Assembly (NCBI GenBank): GCA_029212745.1
Contig: JARGOL010000004.1
Span: 124,001 to 188,000, forward strand
Direction: 5' to 3'
Source: Alcanivoracaceae bacterium
GTDB lineage: Bacteria > Pseudomonadota > Gammaproteobacteria > Pseudomonadales > Alcanivoracaceae
Length of the DNA stretch: 64,000 nt
Under the pieces are notes generated by a model. It was not told the origin of the DNA, made no database searches, and saw only the letters and a program-made list of their open reading frames with translations. Position numbers and translations under genes: made by a program. Of this stretch, positions 2,629 to 13,377 are shown piece after piece. Positions within the stretch are counted from its first letter, which is position 1; the number at the start of each line of letters is the position of its first letter.

Positions 2629-4182
2629 TCATCGCATCAGCCGGAAAACACGCGGATCAACCGCCGCCGCACCCATCATGCCGCCATAAAAAGCGCCCGC
2701 GATGCCCGGGCCAACCACGTCCTGCCCCGACAGGAAAAGACCGGGCACCGGGGTGCGGGCGCGAAGCGCGTCGGACAGCACGCGACGCGGTGTGGTTTCG
2801 ACGCCATAAAAGCCACCCTTTTCGTGGCCGGTAAACGCCGCAGTGGCCAGTGGCGTGCCAAGTTCGTGATAGGTAATCAGCGGGGCAAGGTCCGGGAACT
2901 TTGCCTTGAAGGCTGCCAGCATGCGGGCCTCCACCCGCTGCTTGAACGCCTGCCATTGTTCGGGGTTTTGCTCGGCCCCGCCGTTGGCAAACGGCGCCAC
3001 TGACGCCCAGTCGGCCCACACCAGCATGTCGCCCGAATACTTTTTGTCCGGGCCCGGGTCATGGGCCTTATCCTTCAGTGCCCCGAACGAGACAAACATC
3101 ATGGGCAGCGGATCGTCTTCATTCGCCGACCAGACCGCGTCAGTGGCATCCCAGCTCTCATAGAACCAGTGGTTCGAGCCAGTGGCGCCGTGCGCAGCAA
3201 TATCGCCCTCGAAACCGAGGAACAGGTCGAAGTGGCAGATCGAGGGCTTGAAGGTGGCGATCTCCGCCGCCCAGTCATCGGCCTGAATCTCTTCAGGCAA
3301 AAGACGCTTGACCGTTTCGCCGGCGCCGATGGCTGATACGATCACCGGCGCCCTGAACACGTCGCCCGCAGCAGTACGCACGCCCACGGCGCTACCGTCT
3401 TCGAGGATGATCTCAGTGACGGCAGTACCCGCCAGGGCACGACCGCCAGCACCTTCAATCACCGGAACAAGTCCACGGGCAATGGCGCTGGCACCACCGA
3501 CGGGGTAGCCGGCGCCACCCAGGTAATGGCCAAGCACCATGCCATGAAAGCCGAAACTGGCCTCTTTGGGATTGCCGCCATAGGTGCCCCACTGGCAGGT
3601 CAGCACCGCCGCAAGCTCAGGATTGCTGATCAGCTCGCCGACAACCTCTCCGGTGGTACGTCCGCACCATCGGTGGATCTTCTTTTTGTTCCACCACTGG
3701 TGCGCAGAAAGAAAAGGCTCGGGCATGGCACGCTCGGCGGCTACCATCTGCATGGTCTCTTCCCCCGCCAGCAGCGCCTCGAAATAACCATCTATCTCGC
3801 CGGCATTGTCGGGGAAATGACGTTTCAGCTCCGCCTTGTAGGCATCTCCGGGTGACTTCACAGGAATATCGACGCCGCCCGGAAAGTGCAGCGTGTCATA
3901 GATCGGGCCCACCGAACTGAACTCGATAGCCCCATCACTAAGCTTGTCCAGTAACCGGCCCGCATACTGCTCATGACCGAAACTGCCGCAGTAATGAATC
4001 CCCACATCCCAGGTAAAACCATGGCGCGAGAAGGAGTGCGTGAGCCCACCGATCTCCTGCGCCTGTTCCAGCATCAGCACCTTTCGGCCCACCCGCGATA
4101 GTGCGGCAGCAGTGGTCATGCCGCCCATCCCGGAACCGATGACAATGACATCAAAATCAGTGGCAGGTGTTTTGCTACCCAT
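2629..4182 (-). CDS. FAD-dependent oxidoreductase, phytoene dehydrogenase/CrtISO-RetSat type
   Basis: A 517-residue member of the phytoene-desaturase/carotenoid-isomerase/retinol-saturase superfamily. The dinucleotide-binding motif VIGSGMGGMTTAAALSRVGR followed by VLMLEQ is at residues 13-40, HSFSRHGFTWDVGIHYCG follows as in CrtISO and RetSat proteins, and the C-terminal GLFLSGQDVVGPGIAGAFYG closes the FAD site. These enzymes saturate or isomerise polyene or isoprenoid chains, but the substrate cannot be read here and no carotenoid genes are nearby. The ATG at 4182 has AGGGAG upstream; the longer frame to 4266 has no such support. A 21-bp perfect palindrome lies 89 bp upstream. Confidence 0.85.
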   Translation of the reverse strand: MGSKTPATDFDVIVIGSGMGGMTTAAALSRVGRKVLMLEQAQEIGGLTHSFSRHGFTWDVGIHYCGSFGHEQYAGRLLDKLSDGAIEFSSVGPIYDTLHFPGGVDIPVKSPGDAYKAELKRHFPDNAGEIDGYFEALLAGEETMQMVAAERAMPEPFLSAHQWWNKKKIHRWCGRTTGEVVGELISNPELAAVLTCQWGTYGGNPKEASFGFHGMVLGHYLGGAGYPVGGASAIARGLVPVIEGAGGRALAGTAVTEIILEDGSAVGVRTAAGDVFRAPVIVSAIGAGETVKRLLPEEIQADDWAAEIATFKPSICHFDLFLGFEGDIAAHGATGSNHWFYESWDATDAVWSANEDDPLPMMFVSFGALKDKAHDPGPDKKYSGDMLVWADWASVAPFANGGAEQNPEQWQAFKQRVEARMLAAFKAKFPDLAPLITYHELGTPLATAAFTGHEKGGFYGVETTPRRVLSDALRARTPVPGLFLSGQDVVGPGIAGAFYGGMMGAAAVDPRVFRLMR

Positions 4183-4270
4183 GTGCGTACTCCCTTTCCC
4201 TGGTTGCTGCGCTTCAGGTGGTTCGGCAGCCTTTCCGGCGACGAGTCCGCGCCGAATTCGAGGCATGACA

Positions 4271-5333: not shown

Positions 5334-5933
5334 TCAGACCCGCCTGTCCGTGTCGCCGGGTTGATAACCGCCCTTCTTCAGGTACTCGCGCAGCATGGAA
5401 TAGCTCAGCCCCCAGATGCAGTGCCCCTGATAGCGGCAGCACGGCAGGCGCACACGCCCCAGTGGCGAGCGCCAGTGCATCACCGACTGCTGCTCCGGCG
5501 CCGCCAGGTGCGCCAGTGGAATCCACACCAGTGATTGCACCTCGTGGTTAAGCACCACGTCATCATTGCCGTGCCAGGCATACACATACGGGGTAATCAC
5601 CATGGGCCGCCAACGGTGGTGCTGTCGTGTGAGGCGGTCGGACAGGCGTTGCTCGAAGCTGCCATAGCGCGTCAGGTCCAGGCCCGTCTCTTCAAGGGTT
5701 TCGCGCTCCGCGGCGGCGCGCGGGGTGGGATCATCCACATGCATCAGGCCACCGGGGAAGCTCATGTCGCCCGACCAGGGATCACCCGCGCGTTGCGCGC
5801 GCTGCATGAACAACAGCTCTTGCTGGCCCGCATCACCGGGGCGGTCACGGTGAATGATCGCCACGGCGGCACGCGCCATGCGCCGCCGCAGAGGAATCTT
5901 CAGGGGTGAACCAGAAATACCCGGCAGCGGCAC
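5334..5933 (-). CDS. Nudix hydrolase, CoA pyrophosphatase (NudL)-like
   Basis: A 199-residue Nudix protein. FPGGLMHVDDP followed by AAAERETLEETGL matches the Nudix box with the spacing of the NudL/CoA-diphosphatase subgroup, including the acidic residue in the first half and the metal-binding REx2EE. This subgroup cleaves CoA and CoA derivatives to 4'-phosphopantetheine and adenosine nucleotides. The C-terminal part (YQGHCIWGLSYSMLREYL) resembles the same subgroup. It lies 43 bp after a small membrane-protein gene that is coupled to the AraC regulator, so the three may be co-transcribed. Subgroup assignment is by motif only. Confidence 0.85.
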   Translation of the reverse strand: MPLPGISGSPLKIPLRRRMARAAVAIIHRDRPGDAGQQELLFMQRAQRAGDPWSGDMSFPGGLMHVDDPTPRAAAERETLEETGLDLTRYGSFEQRLSDRLTRQHHRWRPMVITPYVYAWHGNDDVVLNHEVQSLVWIPLAHLAAPEQQSVMHWRSPLGRVRLPCCRYQGHCIWGLSYSMLREYLKKGGYQPGDTDRRV

Positions 5934-5975: not shown

Positions 5976-6272
5976 TCAAAAATCGATATCCACGCCACCG
6001 TCTCGCGTGAATAGCCTGCCCAGGAGTCTCAGCAGCCAGAGAAATACCTCCACGGGCAATTCCACAATAATTTCCAGCACATCCAGCACCACGCTTGAAT
6101 CCCGTCTCTGGCCTGATCGTCTCGACGGCCACAGAAAATAGGCCAGCACATAACCCAGCAGGGCCAGAAGGACCTGTGTTTTCACCACCGGGGTCGCCAG
6201 CAAGGTTTCCACCAGATAGGCGGTGGCCGCCACAAACACGATAAGTGCGAGACCGATGCGAACAGAGATCAT
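5976..6272 (-). CDS. Small membrane protein coupled to the AraC gene
   Basis: A 98-residue protein with hydrophobic segments at about 5-25 and 32-49 and an amphipathic stretch near 62-87, ending in the acidic DGGVDIDF. The ATG overlaps the TGA of the AraC gene (ATGA), so translation is probably coupled. I do not recognise the family. Its conserved-looking coupling to the regulator suggests a regulated membrane function, but nothing more can be said. Confidence 0.7.
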   Translation of the reverse strand: MISVRIGLALIVFVAATAYLVETLLATPVVKTQVLLALLGYVLAYFLWPSRRSGQRRDSSVVLDVLEIIVELPVEVFLWLLRLLGRLFTRDGGVDIDF

Positions 6273-7297
6273 CGACTCGCCCCGCCAGCCGATTCACCCT
6301 GCGCCTGGCGCCACTGGCGCGGCGATAACTGCTCCACCTGCTTGAATGCCTGGCGAAAGCAGGCGGTATCGCGATAGCCGAGCCGGTCGGCAATCTGCTC
6401 AATGCGCGCATCGGTGTCGCGCAGGTAGTGCACGGCCAGGTCGTGGCGCACATCCTTGAGCAGGTCACGGAAATTCACCCCCTCTTCCTGCAGCCGCCGG
6501 CGCAAAGTGCGCTCGGACATGGAGAGTTTTCGCGCCACATCGGCAATGGCCGGGTTCTCGGCCACGTTCAGCGCCAGCATCTCGCGTACCCGGTCGGCCA
6601 GGCCGGTGCGTGCCTGCACCTCCGCCAGCTCTTTCTCGCACTGGGCGGTGAGCAGCCGCAGGTTCACCGGGTTGCCGGTGAGCACCCTGGCATCCAGGTC
6701 ACGGGTACGAAACGTCAGCGACTGGTAGTCGGCATTGAAGGTAATGGGCGCGCTTATCCAGCGCTTGAACTGCTCGGCATAGGGCGGCTCGCGTTGCATC
6801 AGCGTGGCGGCCACCGGGGCAATGTCGGTGCCGGTAAGGTGCTGCAGGCTCACTGTCAGGTTTACCAGCATGGCTTCACCGAGTGCGCAGCTGAATTCCG
6901 GGTAGCGCGCCGAGGTGTGGATGCGCACCACGGTGTTACTGCCCTCTTCCACCGCCTCGGCGCGCACCCCGGGCAGGGCAATGGAGACAAAGCGGGTAAA
7001 CAGGTCGAGGGTGTCATGCAGCGTGCCGCTGGCCATAAAAGCCATGCCCATGTTGCCGTGGGCAGTCACCGGCACGGTGGCACCGAACTCGAGGAAAAAC
7101 CCGGCCAGCTGCGGGTGCTGGTACAGGCGCAAAAAGGCATTTGCCAGCACCTCTTCCGGCAGGCGCTGGCCGAAGCCGATCTGGCTGGCATCATCGATAC
7201 CGGCGGCCTTGAAGATGTCACTGACATCAAAGCCGCGCTGGCGCAGGATCTCATCCGCATAAGCCAGATAGATGCTGTAGCCGGTTACCTGCTCCAT
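6269..7297 (-). CDS. AraC-family regulator (PF12625-type) divergent from the AlkB-like gene
   Basis: A 342-residue regulator with an N-terminal ligand-binding domain of the Arabinose_bd/PF12625 type (to about residue 200) and a C-terminal double helix-turn-helix: IADVARKLSMSERTLRRRL and IEQIADRLGYRDTACFRQAF. The ATG at 7297 has GAGGTGG upstream; the open frame continues to 7408 without a better start. It is divergent from the AlkB-like monooxygenase (225-bp gap) and is the obvious candidate activator of that gene and its reductase. Relatives sense hydrophobic or amino-acid effectors; the effector here is unknown. Confidence 0.88.
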   Translation of the reverse strand: MEQVTGYSIYLAYADEILRQRGFDVSDIFKAAGIDDASQIGFGQRLPEEVLANAFLRLYQHPQLAGFFLEFGATVPVTAHGNMGMAFMASGTLHDTLDLFTRFVSIALPGVRAEAVEEGSNTVVRIHTSARYPEFSCALGEAMLVNLTVSLQHLTGTDIAPVAATLMQREPPYAEQFKRWISAPITFNADYQSLTFRTRDLDARVLTGNPVNLRLLTAQCEKELAEVQARTGLADRVREMLALNVAENPAIADVARKLSMSERTLRRRLQEEGVNFRDLLKDVRHDLAVHYLRDTDARIEQIADRLGYRDTACFRQAFKQVEQLSPRQWRQAQGESAGGASR

Positions 7298-7356
7298 ACC
7301 ACCTCTACCGCCCTGGCCGCTCAGGCTGGCTGCGCCACCCCGGCCCGGACACCGAC

Positions 7357-7415
7357 GTTTTGGCCAAAACCCTCTCTGCCCTACGGTCTTTGGCCGGAAA
7401 TATCCCATTCTGGCC
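7357..7415. promoter_or_regulatory. Candidate AraC operator: palindrome plus phased TGGCC repeats
   Basis: A perfect 14-bp palindrome GTTTTGGCCAAAAC is at 7357-7370. TGGCC recurs at 7361, 7391 and 7411, 30 and 20 bp apart, so all on roughly one helix face, as AraC-type activators often require. A -10-like TATAAC is at 7448-7453, placing the repeats about 45-100 bp upstream of a likely start for the AlkB-like gene. Confidence 0.45.
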
Positions 7416-7522
7416 CTGTGGGTGCCTACAGGGCAAGCCCCGACCTATATAACTTGTATACCACGCTGTGAGGAAAAGGCCCGAGACAGGGCCGGAAAAA
7501 CGACAATGACCGGGAGAACCCC

Positions 7523-8740
7523 ATGCTTCGTTACTTGCGTTTCTTTGTGAACCCCATCGTCATGACGATCATTTCCGTGGGCCTGCTGTTTGGCGGCGTA
7601 TGGATGTGGCTGCCGGGCATTCTCTACATTGCCGGCGTCGCCATTGCCGACCAGCTCTACCCGCACGACACCGAGGAAGCGCCGTACAAGTTTCCGGCGG
7701 TGCTGGATGTCGCCCTGTACCTGTCACTGCCCATGGTGCTGCTGCTGTTCGTCTGCCTGATGTGGGCCATGGGTTCCGGCAGCACCGACATCTTCGGTAT
7801 CGGTGCCTTTATCCAGCAGCACACCGGCATTGACGTGGTGGCCGCGCGCAACAACACCGCCTGGTACCACTACCCGCTGATGCTGCTGTCCATTGCCCTG
7901 CCCGCCAACGGCGCCTCGGGGCTGGCCGGCCATGAGCTGACCCACCGCACCTCGCGCCCGTTCGACCTGTGGCTGGGCCGCACTGCCATGGCCACCTGGT
8001 GGGGCATCGCCTTCCCCATCGAGCACGTGTATGGCCACCATGCCTATGTGGCCACCACCAAGGATCCGGCCACCGCCGCCCGTGGTGATTCCCTCTACCA
8101 GCACCTGCCCAAGGCGCTCAAGCGCACCGTGGTGAATGCCTGGGAACTGGAAACCGAGCGCCTGAAGAAGCTGGGCAAGTCGTTCTGGTCACCCTCCAAT
8201 GTGCTGCTGCGCATGGGTGCTGTGTCCGTGTTCTTCACTGTGAGCGCCTACATGCTCGCCGGCATCCCCGGTCTGCTGGCCTACTTCTACATCTGCTTCA
8301 TGTGCAAGGTGACGCTGGAAGCGCTGAACTATGTGGAGCACTACGGCCTGCTGCGCCAGCCTGACCAGCCGGTGCAACCGCGCCACAGCTGGAACTGCAA
8401 CCACACCGTAAGCGGCGTGTTCACTTACAACCTGACCCGCCACAGCCATCACCATGCCGATGCGCAGGTGCATTACCAGGACCTGAAGGCCTTCGCCGAG
8501 CAGCCGGAAATGCCCGGCGGCTTGCAGACCGCCTACCTGTCCGTGTTCGTGCCGTCCCTGTGGCGCAAGAAGATTGCACCGAAGCTGCTCACCTGGGATC
8601 GCGAGCAGGCCGCGGAAGCCGAGTACCCGCTGCTGGCCCAGGCCAACATCGACAGCGGCTGGCCGGAGCTGATGGACAGTGTCGCTAACGAGAAGACCGG
8701 CATGCATGGCCACAGCGGCGGCCAGACAGCCGCCGCCTGA
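7523..8740 (+). CDS. AlkB-like membrane diiron monooxygenase (divergent)
   Basis: A 405-residue integral-membrane fatty-acid-desaturase-superfamily hydroxylase. Histidine boxes are HELTHR (137-142), EHVYGHH (167-173), NYVEHYG (269-275) and RHSHHH (306-311), with hydrophobic helices at about 10-43, 60-84, 113-130 and 230-262. The last box has HHH where classical alkane hydroxylases have HSDHH, and the acceptor segment differs (NLTRHSHHHADAQVHYQDL). The next gene encodes a XylA-type ferredoxin reductase, as in xylene (XylMA) and p-cymene (CymA) systems, whereas classical AlkB uses rubredoxin. The substrate could be an alkane, alkylaromatic or terpenoid. AraC control is likely. Confidence 0.88.
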   Translation: MLRYLRFFVNPIVMTIISVGLLFGGVWMWLPGILYIAGVAIADQLYPHDTEEAPYKFPAVLDVALYLSLPMVLLLFVCLMWAMGSGSTDIFGIGAFIQQHTGIDVVAARNNTAWYHYPLMLLSIALPANGASGLAGHELTHRTSRPFDLWLGRTAMATWWGIAFPIEHVYGHHAYVATTKDPATAARGDSLYQHLPKALKRTVVNAWELETERLKKLGKSFWSPSNVLLRMGAVSVFFTVSAYMLAGIPGLLAYFYICFMCKVTLEALNYVEHYGLLRQPDQPVQPRHSWNCNHTVSGVFTYNLTRHSHHHADAQVHYQDLKAFAEQPEMPGGLQTAYLSVFVPSLWRKKIAPKLLTWDREQAAEAEYPLLAQANIDSGWPELMDSVANEKTGMHGHSGGQTAAA

Positions 8741-8750
8741 TTGCCGGCTT

Positions 8751-8870
8751 CCCTCACCCTGTCCCTCTCCCGAAGGGAGAGGGGACCAGATTTGCGGGGC
8801 AGTGCCGCTCTGCCTGAACGAGCAGCTACTCTAAGCCCCTCTCCCTCCGGGAGAGGGGTTGGGGTGAGGG
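8751..8870. repeat. Family B inverted-repeat element between monooxygenase and reductase genes
   Basis: Unit 1 at 8751-8785 (CCCTCACCCTGTCCCTCTCC...GGGAGAGGGGA) and unit 2 at 8836-8870 (CCCCTCTCCC...GGGAGAGGGG-TTGGGGTGAGGG) each form a hairpin. Their outer ends, CCCTCACCC and GGGTGAGGG, also pair, giving a 120-bp imperfect inverted repeat. The same element is at 16731 and 18497. Here it sits inside a probable operon and could stabilise or attenuate the message. Confidence 0.75.
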
Positions 8871-8996
8871 GTTGGGATGAGGGCGGCCGCCGCACATTGG
8901 ATTGGCAGCGTTCCCGTCAATCCGGGATGAACACTAACAAAGCGGGGCGGGGGCGCAGGTAGAAACAACCGCCCAACACCCGCAGAGGAGACAGCC

Positions 8997-10067
8997 ATGT
9001 TCGGTTTTCTGAAAGCCAAGCCACAACAGGTCACGCTGGTGGACGACAACGGCGAAACGGTGAAGTCGTTCACCACGGAGCCGAAGGAAACCGTGCTCAA
9101 CGCCGCGCTGCGTGAAGGCATCGACTTTCCCTACAGCTGCAAGGTGGGCGGCTGCGCCAGCTGCAAGTGCCAGCTGGTGAGCGGCAAGGTGAAAGAGCTT
9201 ACCGACAAGAGCTACCTGCTCAGCGCCGAGGAGCTGCAGTCGGGCTATATCCTCGGCTGCCAGAGCATCCCCAAATCGGAACTGGTGGTGCGCATGCCCG
9301 AGGCCGGCTCACCCGCCGTGCCCGGCACACTGACCAGCATCCACTGGCTCACCCATGACATTGCCGAAGTGCACCTCAATCTCGACAACACGGTGACGTA
9401 TCGTCCCGGGCAATACGCCTCGGTGGCGCCGGCAAACGCCAGCCTGCCGGCACGCTGTTATTCCTTTGCCCATGCCGTGAGTGACGGCGGTGACCGGGCC
9501 GTGTCGTTTTTCGTGCGCAAGATTCCCGGCGGCAACCTGAGCCACTGGCTCACCGATGCCGACAACCTGGGCAAGGCCGTCACCCTCTCCACCGTCGCCG
9601 GTGACTGCACCCTGCGCGAAGACAGCAGCCCCATTGTCTGCCTCGCCGGTGGCTCGGGCCTGTCGCCCATCGTCGCCATCCTGGAAGGGGCGCTGAAAAG
9701 CGGCCAGGATACGCGCCCGGTACAGCTGCTGTTTGGTGCCCGTCGCCAGGAAGACCTGTACTACCTGGGTGAGCTGAACGCACTCGGGGAAAAATGGCGC
9801 GCCGATTTCACCGTCACCCCGGTGCTCTCGGACGAGCCGCAGGACAGCGACTGGAAAGGCAAGCGCGGCTGGCTGGCCGATGCCATCACGGCAGAGAATG
9901 CCGCCGGCCACCAGGCCTACCTGTGCGGCCCGCCGGTGATGATCGATACCTGCATGGAAAAACTGAAAGCCCTGGGCATCGCCCCGGCGCAGATCTTCTT
10001 TGATCGCTTCAGTGACCAGAGTGACGGCACGGACTCGAACGTGGTGTCGATCAAGCAGGCGGGGTGA
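8997..10067 (+). CDS. XylA/CymA-type ferredoxin-NAD(P)H reductase
   Basis: A 356-residue electron-transfer protein. The plant-type [2Fe-2S] domain (about 12-95) has CKVGGCASC and a fourth Cys in ILGCQ, spaced C-x4-C-x2-C-x~30-C. An FNR-type FAD domain follows (RPGQYASV, RCYSFAHA), then an NAD(P) domain (LAGGSGLSPIVAIL, CGPPVMID). This layout passes electrons from NAD(P)H through FAD and the cluster to a membrane diiron hydroxylase. GAGGAG lies before the ATG at 8997. It is 256 bp downstream of the AlkB-like gene on the same strand and is almost certainly its partner. Confidence 0.92.
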   Translation: MFGFLKAKPQQVTLVDDNGETVKSFTTEPKETVLNAALREGIDFPYSCKVGGCASCKCQLVSGKVKELTDKSYLLSAEELQSGYILGCQSIPKSELVVRMPEAGSPAVPGTLTSIHWLTHDIAEVHLNLDNTVTYRPGQYASVAPANASLPARCYSFAHAVSDGGDRAVSFFVRKIPGGNLSHWLTDADNLGKAVTLSTVAGDCTLREDSSPIVCLAGGSGLSPIVAILEGALKSGQDTRPVQLLFGARRQEDLYYLGELNALGEKWRADFTVTPVLSDEPQDSDWKGKRGWLADAITAENAAGHQAYLCGPPVMIDTCMEKLKALGIAPAQIFFDRFSDQSDGTDSNVVSIKQAG

Positions 10068-10096
10068 ATAGCAACAGCATTGCCACACTGAAAAGA

Positions 10097-10118
10097 TTCG
10101 CGGCGTGTACGCCGCGAA
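10097..10118. repeat. REP-like palindrome (family A)
   Basis: A perfect hairpin with 10-bp arms TTCGCGGCGT/ACGCCGCGAA and a 2-nt loop, 30 bp after the reductase stop. It may serve as a transcript end in the convergent gap before the sugar-dehydrogenase gene. Confidence 0.8.
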
Positions 10119-10201
10119 CCCGACATCCCTGAAACACGCCCCGACGCCCCCGAATCACACCCGCGCCGAGCCATGAACCACCCAGCCCGCCAAGCGCCGA
10201 T

Positions 10202-11281
10202 TCAGTTATCCGGGACAATCCGGTAAATGCTGCCGTCATCGGTGGCCACGTACAGATACCCTGCCGGTCCCTCGATCACGTTGCGCACGCGCTGGTTCAG
10301 CTCGGCAAGCAAACGCGCCTCGGCCACGGCCTGGCCGTTGTCATCCAGCGTCACTCGATTCAGGTGCTTGAGTTTCATGGCGCCACTGAACAGGTCGCCC
10401 TGCCATTCGGGAAACTTGTCGCCGCGGTACCGCACCAGACCGCTGGGGGCGATGGAAGGAATATAGACTTTGACCGGATCTTCCATGCCGGGCTTGCTCT
10501 TTGCTTCGCCCACATCCAGCGGCCCCCAGTATTCCTTGCCCTGGGAAACCACCGGCCAGCCGTAATTGCGGCCGGGCTTGATCAGGTTGATCTCGTCGCC
10601 CCCGCGCGGGCCATGTTCGATGGCCCACAGCTCACCGGTGTCATCATCAAAAAACATCCCCTGCGGGTTGCGGTGACCAAGACTCCAGATCTCTGGCAGC
10701 ACATTGTCACGGCCCACGAACGGGTTATCGGCGGGCACCGAGCCATCCAGGTTCAGGCGCAGGATGCTGCCGGCATGGGTGGTCAGGTCCTGGCCGTTTT
10801 CGCGCACGCCCCGGTCACCGAGGCTGAAGAACACATGGCCGTTGCCATCAAAGGCAATGCGGCTGCCGAAGTGACGCCCGGTGTCGGTACCGGATTGTGT
10901 GTAAAGCAGCACCTGCCACTTGCGGATCGCCGTGCCCGCCAGCTGCGCCCGGGCCAGCGTGGTGACGCCAAACCCGTCATCGTTGCTGGCGGCATAGGTA
11001 AAGTAGATCCAGTCGCTGTCCGCCGGGATGGCCACATCCAGCAGGCCGGCCTGGCCCTTGGCATGCACCGCCGGCACGCCGCTCACGGTCTCGCGGCTGC
11101 CGGTTCTGGTATTGAGGACATAGAGCTGCCCTTCCCGGGCCGTGACCAGCATCTCGGTGTCATTCAGGAACGCCATGCCCCAGGGAATGCCATTGATGCT
11201 GCCGACTTTTTCCAGCTGATACGCCTGGGCAGCGCCCACCAGCAGCGCCAGCAGTGCAACCAGACAACGGATACCCGCCAT
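10202..11281 (-). CDS. Exported PQQ-dependent sugar dehydrogenase-like beta-propeller
   Basis: A 359-residue protein of the glucose/sorbosone dehydrogenase family (soluble aldose dehydrogenase, YliI/Asd-like). Residues 1-20 form a signal peptide ending AAQA. Family blocks are NGIPWGMAFLNDTEMLVTAR, GQAGLLDVA, GRHFGSRIAFDGNGHVFFSL, the SLGHRNPQGM segment bearing a cofactor-site His-Arg, and EHGPRGGDEINLIKPGRNYG. The likely reaction is periplasmic oxidation of a sugar or alcohol with PQQ. An AAGGAG site lies before the ATG. No PQQ biosynthesis genes are in the window, so cofactor loading is unproven. Confidence 0.87.
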   Translation of the reverse strand: MAGIRCLVALLALLVGAAQAYQLEKVGSINGIPWGMAFLNDTEMLVTAREGQLYVLNTRTGSRETVSGVPAVHAKGQAGLLDVAIPADSDWIYFTYAASNDDGFGVTTLARAQLAGTAIRKWQVLLYTQSGTDTGRHFGSRIAFDGNGHVFFSLGDRGVRENGQDLTTHAGSILRLNLDGSVPADNPFVGRDNVLPEIWSLGHRNPQGMFFDDDTGELWAIEHGPRGGDEINLIKPGRNYGWPVVSQGKEYWGPLDVGEAKSKPGMEDPVKVYIPSIAPSGLVRYRGDKFPEWQGDLFSGAMKLKHLNRVTLDDNGQAVAEARLLAELNQRVRNVIEGPAGYLYVATDDGSIYRIVPDN

Positions 11282-11952: not shown

Positions 11953-12126
11953 GCCCGGCGATTCGGCCGGCTGACAGGGCACGTGTGTGCGCCCCCACCA
12001 GCGCTGCCGTGGCCGGGACAGAGGCTATTGCAGACCTGCTCGCGGTGAGCCACACGGGAACTCTATCTCACTGTTTTGTAACGCTTTACTCGCCCATTCG
12101 CGACGCCCACCGCCGCCACCACTTTG

Positions 12127-12140
12127 TTGATCCAAATCAA
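12127..12140. promoter_or_regulatory. Perfect FNR/Anr box upstream of alkB
   Basis: TTGAT-CCAA-ATCAA matches the FNR/Anr consensus TTGAT-N4-ATCAA at every position. Its centre (12133.5) is about 46 bp upstream of the start predicted from the -10 element at 12168-12173, close to a class II activator position. It suggests oxygen-responsive control of the hydroxylase gene. Confidence 0.7.
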
Positions 12141-12154
12141 TACATCCAAAACTG

Positions 12155-12173
12155 TTACATCAGAGGATGTAAT
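12155..12173. promoter_or_regulatory. Inverted repeat and -10 element of the alkB promoter
   Basis: TTACATC-AGAG-GATGTAA (12155-12172) is a perfect 7-bp inverted repeat. Its right arm overlaps TGTAAT (12168-12173), a 5/6 match to TATAAT. A protein bound here would block the promoter, so this is a candidate repressor operator next to the Anr box. The remainder of the 273-bp gap from 11953 shows no gene. Confidence 0.5.
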
Positions 12174-12225
12174 CGTTAGCGCTGCTGGCGCCTTTTTACT
12201 CAATCACTTTGGCGAGGACCACACC

Positions 12226-13377
12226 ATGCTCGAGCACCTCAACCCCCGCATCATGGCGGCCTTGAAGAAATGGGGCTTCCTGCTGTTCTGGATCGCGGTA
12301 CTGCCGATCCTGCCCATTGCTGCCTATGGCGGCCGTGACACCGGCACCCAGGACTACTGGGCCTGGGCCATCTACTTCACCGTGTTCGGCATCATCCCGC
12401 TGCTCGATTACATGGTCGGCAAGGACCCCACCAACCCGGACGAGAAAACCGAGGTGCCGGCCCTGACCCAGGAGAAGATCTACCGCGCCTTCCCGCTGAT
12501 CCTCGGCTGCGTCTGGCTCGGTGTGCTCTACTTTGCCGGGCACATTTTTGCCACGGCGGATTACGGCCTGCTGGGTATGATTGGCTGGGTGCTGTCCATC
12601 GGCACGCTGGGCGGCGCCATTGCCATCGTGCTGGCCCATGAGCTGGTGCACAAGGACGAGCGCCTTGAGAACTGGTTTGGCGGGCTACTGCTGTCCAGCG
12701 TCTGTTACGCCGGCTTCAAGGTGGAGCACATTCGCGGCCACCATGTGTTCGTGGCCACACCCGATGACGGTGCCTCGGCGCAGTTTAACCAGAGTGTCTG
12801 GAATTTCCTGCCGAAAGCACTCGCGCACAACTTTGTTACCGCTTGGCAGCTGGAAGCGCAGCGTCTGCGCCGCAAGGGCCTGAAGGCGTTCTCCGTGCAC
12901 AATGAACTGATCTGGTGGTACGCCATCAGCGTCCTGTTTGCTGCCAGTTTTTTCCTGCTGTGGGGCTGGCAAGGCCTGGTGTTCTTCCTGCTGGTGGGCC
13001 TGGTGGCCGGCAGCACGCTGGAAGTGATCAACTATGTGGAGCACTACGGCCTGCACCGTCGCCTGCTGGACAACGGCAAGTACGAACGCGTCACCCCGGC
13101 GCACAGCTGGAACTCCAACTACTTCCTCACCAACCTGGCGCTGTTCCAGCTGCAACGCCACAGCGACCACCATGCCTACGGCAAGCGCCGCTATCAGGTG
13201 CTGCGCCATTACGAGGACAGCCCCCAGCTGCCCGGCGGTTACGCTGCCATGTATGTGCTAGCACTGGTGCCGCCGCTGTGGAAGGCGGTAATGAACCCAC
13301 GCGTGGAAGCCTACTATCAGGGCGAGATGGACCAGCTGTTCCGCGAGCGGCCGCGGGTCAACAACATCACCGCCTGA
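12226..13377 (+). CDS. alkB: Alkane 1-monooxygenase, canonical AlkB
   Basis: A 383-residue integral-membrane diiron alkane hydroxylase. The boxes HELVHKD (from 139), EHIRGHH (167-173), NYVEHYG (269-275) and LQRHSDHHAY (309-318) all match the alkane hydroxylase consensus, and helices are predicted at about 15-35, 44-64, 90-107, 112-137 and 230-266. It converts n-alkanes to 1-alkanols using rubredoxin and rubredoxin reductase, neither of which is encoded here. GAGGA seven bases upstream supports ATG 12226; a frame from 12124 would swallow the promoter elements. It has no adjacent dedicated regulator; the next gene is metR. Confidence 0.95.
   Translation: MLEHLNPRIMAALKKWGFLLFWIAVLPILPIAAYGGRDTGTQDYWAWAIYFTVFGIIPLLDYMVGKDPTNPDEKTEVPALTQEKIYRAFPLILGCVWLGVLYFAGHIFATADYGLLGMIGWVLSIGTLGGAIAIVLAHELVHKDERLENWFGGLLLSSVCYAGFKVEHIRGHHVFVATPDDGASAQFNQSVWNFLPKALAHNFVTAWQLEAQRLRRKGLKAFSVHNELIWWYAISVLFAASFFLLWGWQGLVFFLLVGLVAGSTLEVINYVEHYGLHRRLLDNGKYERVTPAHSWNSNYFLTNLALFQLQRHSDHHAYGKRRYQVLRHYEDSPQLPGGYAAMYVLALVPPLWKAVMNPRVEAYYQGEMDQLFRERPRVNNITA

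Follow-up and report, generated by a model that had tools for sequence, protein, structure and literature searches.

The two neighbouring genes considered here lie in a stretch of 64,000 nucleotides from an Alcanivoracaceae bacterium (contig JARGOL010000004.1 of assembly GCA_029212745.1, positions 124,001 to 188,000; hereafter the window). They probably encode a two-gene hydrocarbon monooxygenase with the AlkB fold, in which a reductase would feed the hydroxylase directly and the most likely target is the terminal methyl group of an aliphatic hydrocarbon; a probability of roughly 0.72 is attached to this reading. Computational support comes from the predicted fold, the metal ligands, the domains of the partner, the recurrent pairing of the two genes, the replacement or loss of most of the arginines that face rubredoxin in AlkB, and a position outside the AlkB and XylM-like clades. 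To judge from the sequences, the pair is an apparently functional AlkB-type hydroxylase linked to a [2Fe-2S] reductase. Both open reading frames (ORFs) are intact, and comparison with the locus L016 of an Alcanivoracaceae metagenome-assembled genome, whose hydroxylase is 95% identical, gives ratios of nonsynonymous to synonymous substitution (dN/dS) of 0.075 for the hydroxylase, 0.142 for the reductase and 0.104 for a divergent AraC-type gene. All three genes therefore appear to be maintained under purifying selection.

The hydroxylase gene (7523 to 8740, forward strand) encodes a predicted AlkB-type integral-membrane diiron hydroxylase of 405 amino acids. It matches the Pfam family FA_desaturase (PF00487, E 1.2e-30) and, among the sequences of solved structures, 8f6t (E 3.3e-42) and 8sbb (E 1.8e-40); an NCBIfam scan gave no family at E 0.001. 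Structural alignment of the AlphaFold2 model (mean predicted local distance difference test score 92.2, predicted template modelling score 0.89, input alignment of 46 sequences) gives Z 40.6 against 8f6t (AlkB-AlkG), with a root-mean-square deviation (rmsd) of 2.4 A across 355 residues, and Z 37.1 against FtAlkB (8sbb). Taken at its word, the Pfam name would make the protein a fatty-acid desaturase or a lipid hydroxylase, which is the least probable of the readings considered and close to negligible. The PF00487 match favours it, but that family matches canonical AlkB equally well (107.5 versus 107.6 bits), and the model aligns with stearoyl-CoA desaturase at Z 5.2, so that a desaturase identity was rejected on the fold comparison. 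Two chains of the FtsHi complex also align with the model (Z 11.8-12.6, rmsd about 5 A) and are left uninterpreted.

Four boxes, all read on the forward strand, make up the putative active site. In box 1 (HELTH, residues 137-141, 7931 to 7945) H137, E138, L139 and H141 are invariant across 46 aligned sequences, the window's included and L055, L056, L061 and L085 left out, and box 2 (EHVYGHH, residues 167-173, 8021 to 8041) is invariant in the same alignment. Box 3 (NYVEHYG, residues 269-275, 8327 to 8347) holds, by alignment, a glutamate and a histidine ligand, and in box 4 (RHSHHH, residues 306-311, 8438 to 8455) H309 replaces the aspartate of AlkB. The iron ligands of FtAlkB are described as nine histidines and one glutamate (PMC10113152), to which ten invariant residues correspond (H137, H141, H168, H172, H173, E272, H273, H307, H310 and H311); H309 is an additional histidine between the metal-ligand histidines. 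The original prediction had singled out this last box, and it does read T305-R306-H307-S308-H309-H310-H311, as against QRHSDHH in the neighbouring alkB.

The reductase gene (8997 to 10067, forward strand) encodes a [2Fe-2S]/FAD/NAD reductase of 356 amino acids with the Pfam domains Fer2 (1.6e-16), FAD_binding_6 (4.9e-5) and NAD_binding_1 (3.7e-19). Twenty-two NCBIfam families are listed for it, none at its own cut-off, the best being BenC with 195 of 430 bits, and its solved relatives include the reductases of carbazole and benzoate dioxygenases. Four further matches at E 1e-10 or better occur in its own genome, the best 30% identical. Of 80 named relatives, 75 have a reductase-type match no more than 700 bp from the hydroxylase and in the same orientation (upstream in 60, downstream in 15); together with the domains, this agrees with the earlier proposal of a [2Fe-2S]/flavin reductase as partner in place of rubredoxin. 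Hydroxylase and reductase are fused in a single chain in seven of the 80 relatives (L031, L032, L066, L082, L088, L090 and L094), and they also form one chain on Polaromonas pPNAP01. As a positive control, the same reductase query recovered XylA in the XylM locus; it gave no match at any of the five canonical AlkB loci of the window's own genome (L002-L006 with 1.5 kb flanks, L003 and L004 overlapping). The rubredoxin family has a single match in that genome at E 0.001, on contig C12, whereas the window lies on C17, and rubredoxin was rejected as the partner on these grounds.

Phylogeny sets the hydroxylase apart from both familiar groups. The tree holds 91 of 109 rows (18 rows from 11 loci were dropped as redundant); L001, L002, L008, L009 and L069 had been skipped as duplicates before the 109-row set was made, and L106 and L007, which lack the motif, were left out. 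Rubredoxin-type AlkB (12 rows from 11 genes, L003 and L004 sharing a single gene) and the XylM-like rows (pWW0, Marinobacter SBY-1, L098 from pNL1 and L102 from Sphingopyxis, the last two annotated as alkane 1-monooxygenase and assigned by box 4) form clades at 100/100 each. The window gene falls outside both, and the claim that the pair is divergent from AlkB thus stands. The remaining 75 rows, each of them retrieved by way of the window's protein, contain the window gene and the fused ferredoxin/reductase/AlkB proteins. Among them the window gene and 12 relatives form a clade at 100/100, here called group I, whose stem measures 2.09 changes per column; the tree program issued a warning about long branches that join one another. 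Group I spans Alcanivoracaceae, Solimonas, Zhongshania, Porticoccaceae, Moraxellaceae, Nevskiales and unassigned Gammaproteobacteria. A search of 46 genomes of the window's family found a match at E 1e-80 or better in six, three at 79-100% identity (the window's own included) and three at 40%. Group I seems to be an uncharacterised branch of an alkane hydroxylase type that is already known, though little studied, and not a new kind of enzyme. A more far-reaching view, in which group I would be a so far undescribed [2Fe-2S]-coupled AlkB lineage with a substrate class of its own and H309 would retune or supplement the diiron site, is doubtful. Firm placement in a characterised clade with the same partner and a known substrate, which would have contradicted the original prediction, is seen only in part: the larger set has characterised members, and none was found in the 13-row subclade.

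The same trees bear on whether the pair could be an alkylaromatic methyl hydroxylase of the XylM/CymA type, a very improbable reading. A like reductase partner and the short stretch after box 3 are common to both systems, and XylA adjoins the Spirochaetota reductases of the set in the reductase tree (Shimodaira-Hasegawa-like approximate likelihood ratio test, SH-aLRT, 89), thus not far outside it. Nevertheless, the XylM-like hydroxylases form their separate clade, pWW0 XylM is 29% identical to the window protein and reads TNHINHH in box 4 and AHVNTHH in box 2, and the three XylA rows form a reductase clade of their own (98); seven reductases from group I likewise group together (SH-aLRT 99). 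This reductase tree was built without 18 listed loci and without L017, L021 and L024 (slices with a stop), and L023, L043 and L092 contributed no row. A benzaldehyde dehydrogenase gene stands beside XylM in three of five fetched XylM-like loci, but a scan of ten window proteins revealed no such enzyme. Tree and motifs led to the rejection of XylM membership, and the idea that kinship with XylM could guide the choice of substrate is not upheld, given the separate clades of both proteins and two AlkB-like substrate leucines described below.

The sequence signatures of the hydroxylase are consistent with a change of electron donor. At the position of the AlkB aspartate in box 4, the 75-row set has histidine in 69 rows, alanine in five (all Spirochaetota) and aspartate in one (L051), so that RHSHHH is the norm of a large set and not peculiar to the window gene; aspartate occupies this position in all 12 canonical AlkB rows, and the XylM-like rows have asparagine in three of four and aspartate in one. 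Natural variants of the box are found as RHSDHH in L051 (Rhodoferax) and RHSAHH in L037, L056, L057, L065 and L067 (Spirochaetota). Six arginines of FtAlkB are described as facing rubredoxin (R143, R148, R169, R215, R284 and R287), with no specific salt bridges seen (PMC10113152). When these positions are mapped by motif offsets through a rubredoxin-adjacent AlkB (L101), the window protein has T, L, Y, K, a gap and P. Group I has T, L and Y in 13 of 13 rows each, then K or R (12 + 1), and a gap and P again in all 13, while the other 62 rows have T/S, M/L/W, Y, R/K (one T), a gap in 61 (one D) and P/A (one R). In the same order, arginine or lysine stands in 9, 8, 11, 11, 11 and 8 of the 12 canonical AlkB rows. 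At R169, in box 2, all 75 rows have tyrosine and 11 of the 12 canonical rows have arginine or lysine.

Length changes accompany these substitutions. Between HYG and H-S/A-WN, all 12 AlkB rows have 17 residues and 72 of the 75 have 12 (one row has 13, and in two the pattern extended to a match farther along); 12 is also the length in the three XylM-like rows with a match to the pattern. The window hydroxylase is five residues shorter after box 3 than canonical AlkB, in the region that there holds two rubredoxin-facing arginines. A switch of donor would agree with the substitution or deletion of most of these arginines throughout the set. The rubredoxin-docking surface would thus be missing where the partner gene differs, a correlation in which the interface itself is predicted. 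RHSHHH, EHVYGHH and five fewer residues after box 3 go with a different neighbour gene, and the type of donor might be callable from this pattern; one large survey of hydrocarbon genes labels AlkB/M rubredoxin-dependent (PMC9535955). Since XylM also lacks the rubredoxin-facing loop, coupling to rubredoxin may be a derived state within the AlkB superfamily.

The comparisons point to aliphatic hydrocarbons as the likeliest substrate class. Two leucines reported to position the alkane in AlkB, L274 and L318 (PMC10110569), remain leucine throughout group I (13 of 13 rows); XylM-like rows have valine and isoleucine there. Fused ferredoxin/reductase/AlkB members are described as active, without alkene epoxidation (PMC8918992), and as favouring C10-C12 (PMC12903215, citing Williams 2022). 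A fusion of 754 amino acids accompanies growth only on n-octane and n-decane (PMC12903215); that study takes its N-terminal half as desaturase-like, and the protein would resemble the present fusions in size and domains. In Oleispira and Thalassolituus, adjacent Fer2 and AlkB genes are induced 11- to 21-fold on n-C14 (tetradecane) (PMC6304351, PMC7318663). Published relatives that were assayed or induced thus act or rise on n-alkanes, and none is shown to belong to group I (PMC8918992, PMC12903215, PMC6304351, PMC7318663).

The same electron chain might instead serve another substrate, namely branched, alicyclic or isoprenoid hydrocarbons or an alkyl side chain, with the resulting acid passing to specialised acyl-CoA dehydrogenases. 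This alternative is unlikely, although it is the strongest of the rivals. The stem of group I is long and distinct, threonine replaces leucine at one substrate-contact position, and acyl-CoA dehydrogenase genes lie near the hydroxylase in four of 13 group I loci versus none of 58 others (Fisher p 0.0007, uncorrected for kinship); L024 of Zhongshania has a PimC/PimD-like pair, well below the models' cut-offs, with a short-chain dehydrogenase/reductase and an acyl-CoA ligase. However, no such neighbours were found in the part of the window searched, in L016 or in L017, beta-oxidation genes suit plain n-alkanes equally well, and the two key leucines are kept. These neighbour-gene counts leave out 10 redundant loci and distinguish group II (all rows not set apart, including L092 and L093, which are loosely placed in the tree) and 'Ab' (a nine-row Aquabacterium/Nevskiales clade). 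By the same counts, homologues of the AlkJ-type dehydrogenase and of the aldehyde dehydrogenase of the Polaromonas L013 cluster each occur in one of 44 group II and none of 13 group I loci, its ligase in one of 44, one of 13 and one of nine 'Ab' loci, and OmpW in none of 71; a substrate deduced from that cluster was rejected because the cluster does not generalise. The window's own neighbours (CrtI-like oxidoreductase, DUF4336, START, GSDH and DUF2505) were uninformative. If the substrate class does differ, the two-gene system would widen the hydrocarbon range of oil-degrading bacteria; if it is n-alkanes, the redundancy of six AlkB-type genes in one 3.3 Mb genome becomes the question.

For the preferred reading, a reductase-fed hydroxylase of aliphatic hydrocarbons, the following mechanism is proposed. 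The reductase would oxidise NAD(P)H, probably NADH, and pass the electrons through its FAD to its [2Fe-2S] domain. This domain would dock at the cytoplasmic face of the membrane hydroxylase and directly reduce the histidine-bound diiron centre, taking the place of rubredoxin reductase and rubredoxin. The hydroxylase would then transfer a single oxygen atom from O2 to a C-H bond, most likely one in the terminal methyl group of an aliphatic hydrocarbon. Regulation probably falls to the divergent AraC-type protein, which would turn the pair on in response to the hydrocarbon or a product.

Several observations weigh against this reading. No adjacent same-strand reductase match is present in five of the 80 relatives; none was found near the hydroxylase in L023, L043 and L092, and in L045 and L062 the match lies about 2.95 kb off on the opposite strand. 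The match spans just 78-112 residues at the ferredoxin end in L025, L065, L086 and L093, which suggests that the neighbour there is a stand-alone ferredoxin and not a full reductase; such neighbours would fit the Fer2 domain as the direct donor. These ferredoxin-length matches lie at L025:757-1098, L065:6211-6444, L086:4661-4966 and L093:5410-5700, and L026 and L087 have partial reductase matches. The Thalassolituus neighbour is itself described as a ferredoxin with a separate reductase, and mutants of the 754-residue fusion with the AlkB domain intact still grew on octane, so that the fused reductase half may not be needed there (PMC12903215). Nor is loss of the arginines a strict mark of the donor, since the XylM-like rows keep arginine at the R143 and R148 positions (four of four) and arginine or lysine at R215, with the rest lacking, and 74 of the 75 rows still have arginine or lysine at R215. 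The substrate-contact position of 8sbb L315 is threonine in 13 of 13 group I rows and leucine in nine of 12 AlkB rows. The 75 rows are not a single clade on the best tree, where they need two label changes, although constraining them to one clade is not rejected (approximately unbiased test, p 0.29). Finally, no characterised member of group I was found in the literature searched, and with so long a stem the substrate could have shifted.

The regulator and the canonical alkB are placed as first described, the one divergent from the pair and the other 3.5 kb away. The AraC-type gene (6269 to 7297, reverse strand) encodes the domains Arabinose_bd (PF12625) and HTH_18 (PF12833); its ORF reaches 7408, and a start common with L016 lies at about 7297. 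An AraC homologue occurs in 39 of 44 group II loci, two of nine 'Ab', none of five Spirochaetota and seven of 13 group I, and the remaining six group I loci have a TetR homologue (four) or a LysR homologue (two). The intergenic region (7298 to 7522) is the presumed site of a regulated promoter; positions 7400-7540, aligned with two relatives, are partly conserved, and a search for sigma-70-type promoters over 7300-10300 gave no match. The gap between hydroxylase and reductase is 256 bp in the window, compared with 70 bp in L016 and 14 bp in L017, so co-transcription may be weaker in the window than in these relatives. Within the gap sits a dispersed palindromic repeat element (8751 to 8870, CCCTCTCCC...GGGAGAGGG) with an inverted repeat at 8763-8795/8825-8857; the genome has 86 pieces that match it, a number that includes the element itself and palindrome matches on the opposite strand.

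The ORF of the canonical AlkB (12124-13377) has its likely ATG, read from the sequence, at 12226, about 3.5 kb past the end of the hydroxylase. No canonical alkB was found within the 5 kb flank of the L016 hydroxylase, and one lies near a reductase-coupled hydroxylase in nine of the 80 named loci (L062, L073-L077, L079, L081 and L083), eight of them near-identical and of the Aquabacterium type. The 3.3 Mb genome has six AlkB-type genes and one weak match (E 8.9e-4) but one rubredoxin match; two further AlkB genes stand in tandem on contig C8 (L003 and L004), about 62-67% identical to the canonical AlkB of the window. Farther from the pair, the window holds a CrtI/carotenoid-isomerase-like FAD oxidoreductase gene (2629-4266, reverse strand), below the cut-offs of the models shown, a DUF4336 gene near it (1463-2224) and a Nudix-type gene named by eye from the sequence (5334-5933).

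Among known systems, the pair resembles the ferr_ferrR_AlkB fusions, which are reportedly to be credited to Nie 2014 and Williams 2022. These are single proteins of the ferredoxin/reductase/AlkB type (PMC8918992, PMC12903215, PMC10113152), and the likeness lies in the coupling of a [2Fe-2S] ferredoxin/reductase with a hydroxylase of the AlkB type; one such fusion, from Polaromonas pPNAP01, shows 41% identity in the hydroxylase part and has the box SRHSHHH. FtAlkB (8f6t/8sbb) has in common with the window protein the fold, the nine histidines and glutamate and the two substrate leucines, but the identity is 29%, box 4 of the window protein has histidine for aspartate, and most of the rubredoxin-facing arginines are replaced or missing. 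By its TRHSHHH box in place of QRHSDHH and its exclusion from the 12-row AlkB clade (100/100), the window gene is not a canonical AlkB. XylM/XylA of pWW0 matches it in the two-gene layout and the short stretch after box 3, and differs in boxes 2 and 4, in its 29% identity and in the clades of both proteins. The same kind of neighbour, unfused, is described in Oleispira antarctica (C34430-C34450, with AraC; PMC7318663) and Thalassolituus oleivorans (TOL_2658/2659; PMC6304351), where these papers name it a ferredoxin. These published loci were compared by description. Among the relatives of the window pair, those in Oleispira sp. (L034) and Thalassolituus marinus (L061) have AraC, reductase and hydroxylase genes, their hydroxylases being 41% and 36% identical to that of the window and outside group I. 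In the known fusions the ferredoxin and reductase are joined to the N terminus of the hydroxylase, whereas the window genes are separate, with the hydroxylase first, and belong to a different deep subclade; the window pair is therefore not a member of the fusions, but it may work as the ferr_ferrR_AlkB proteins do.

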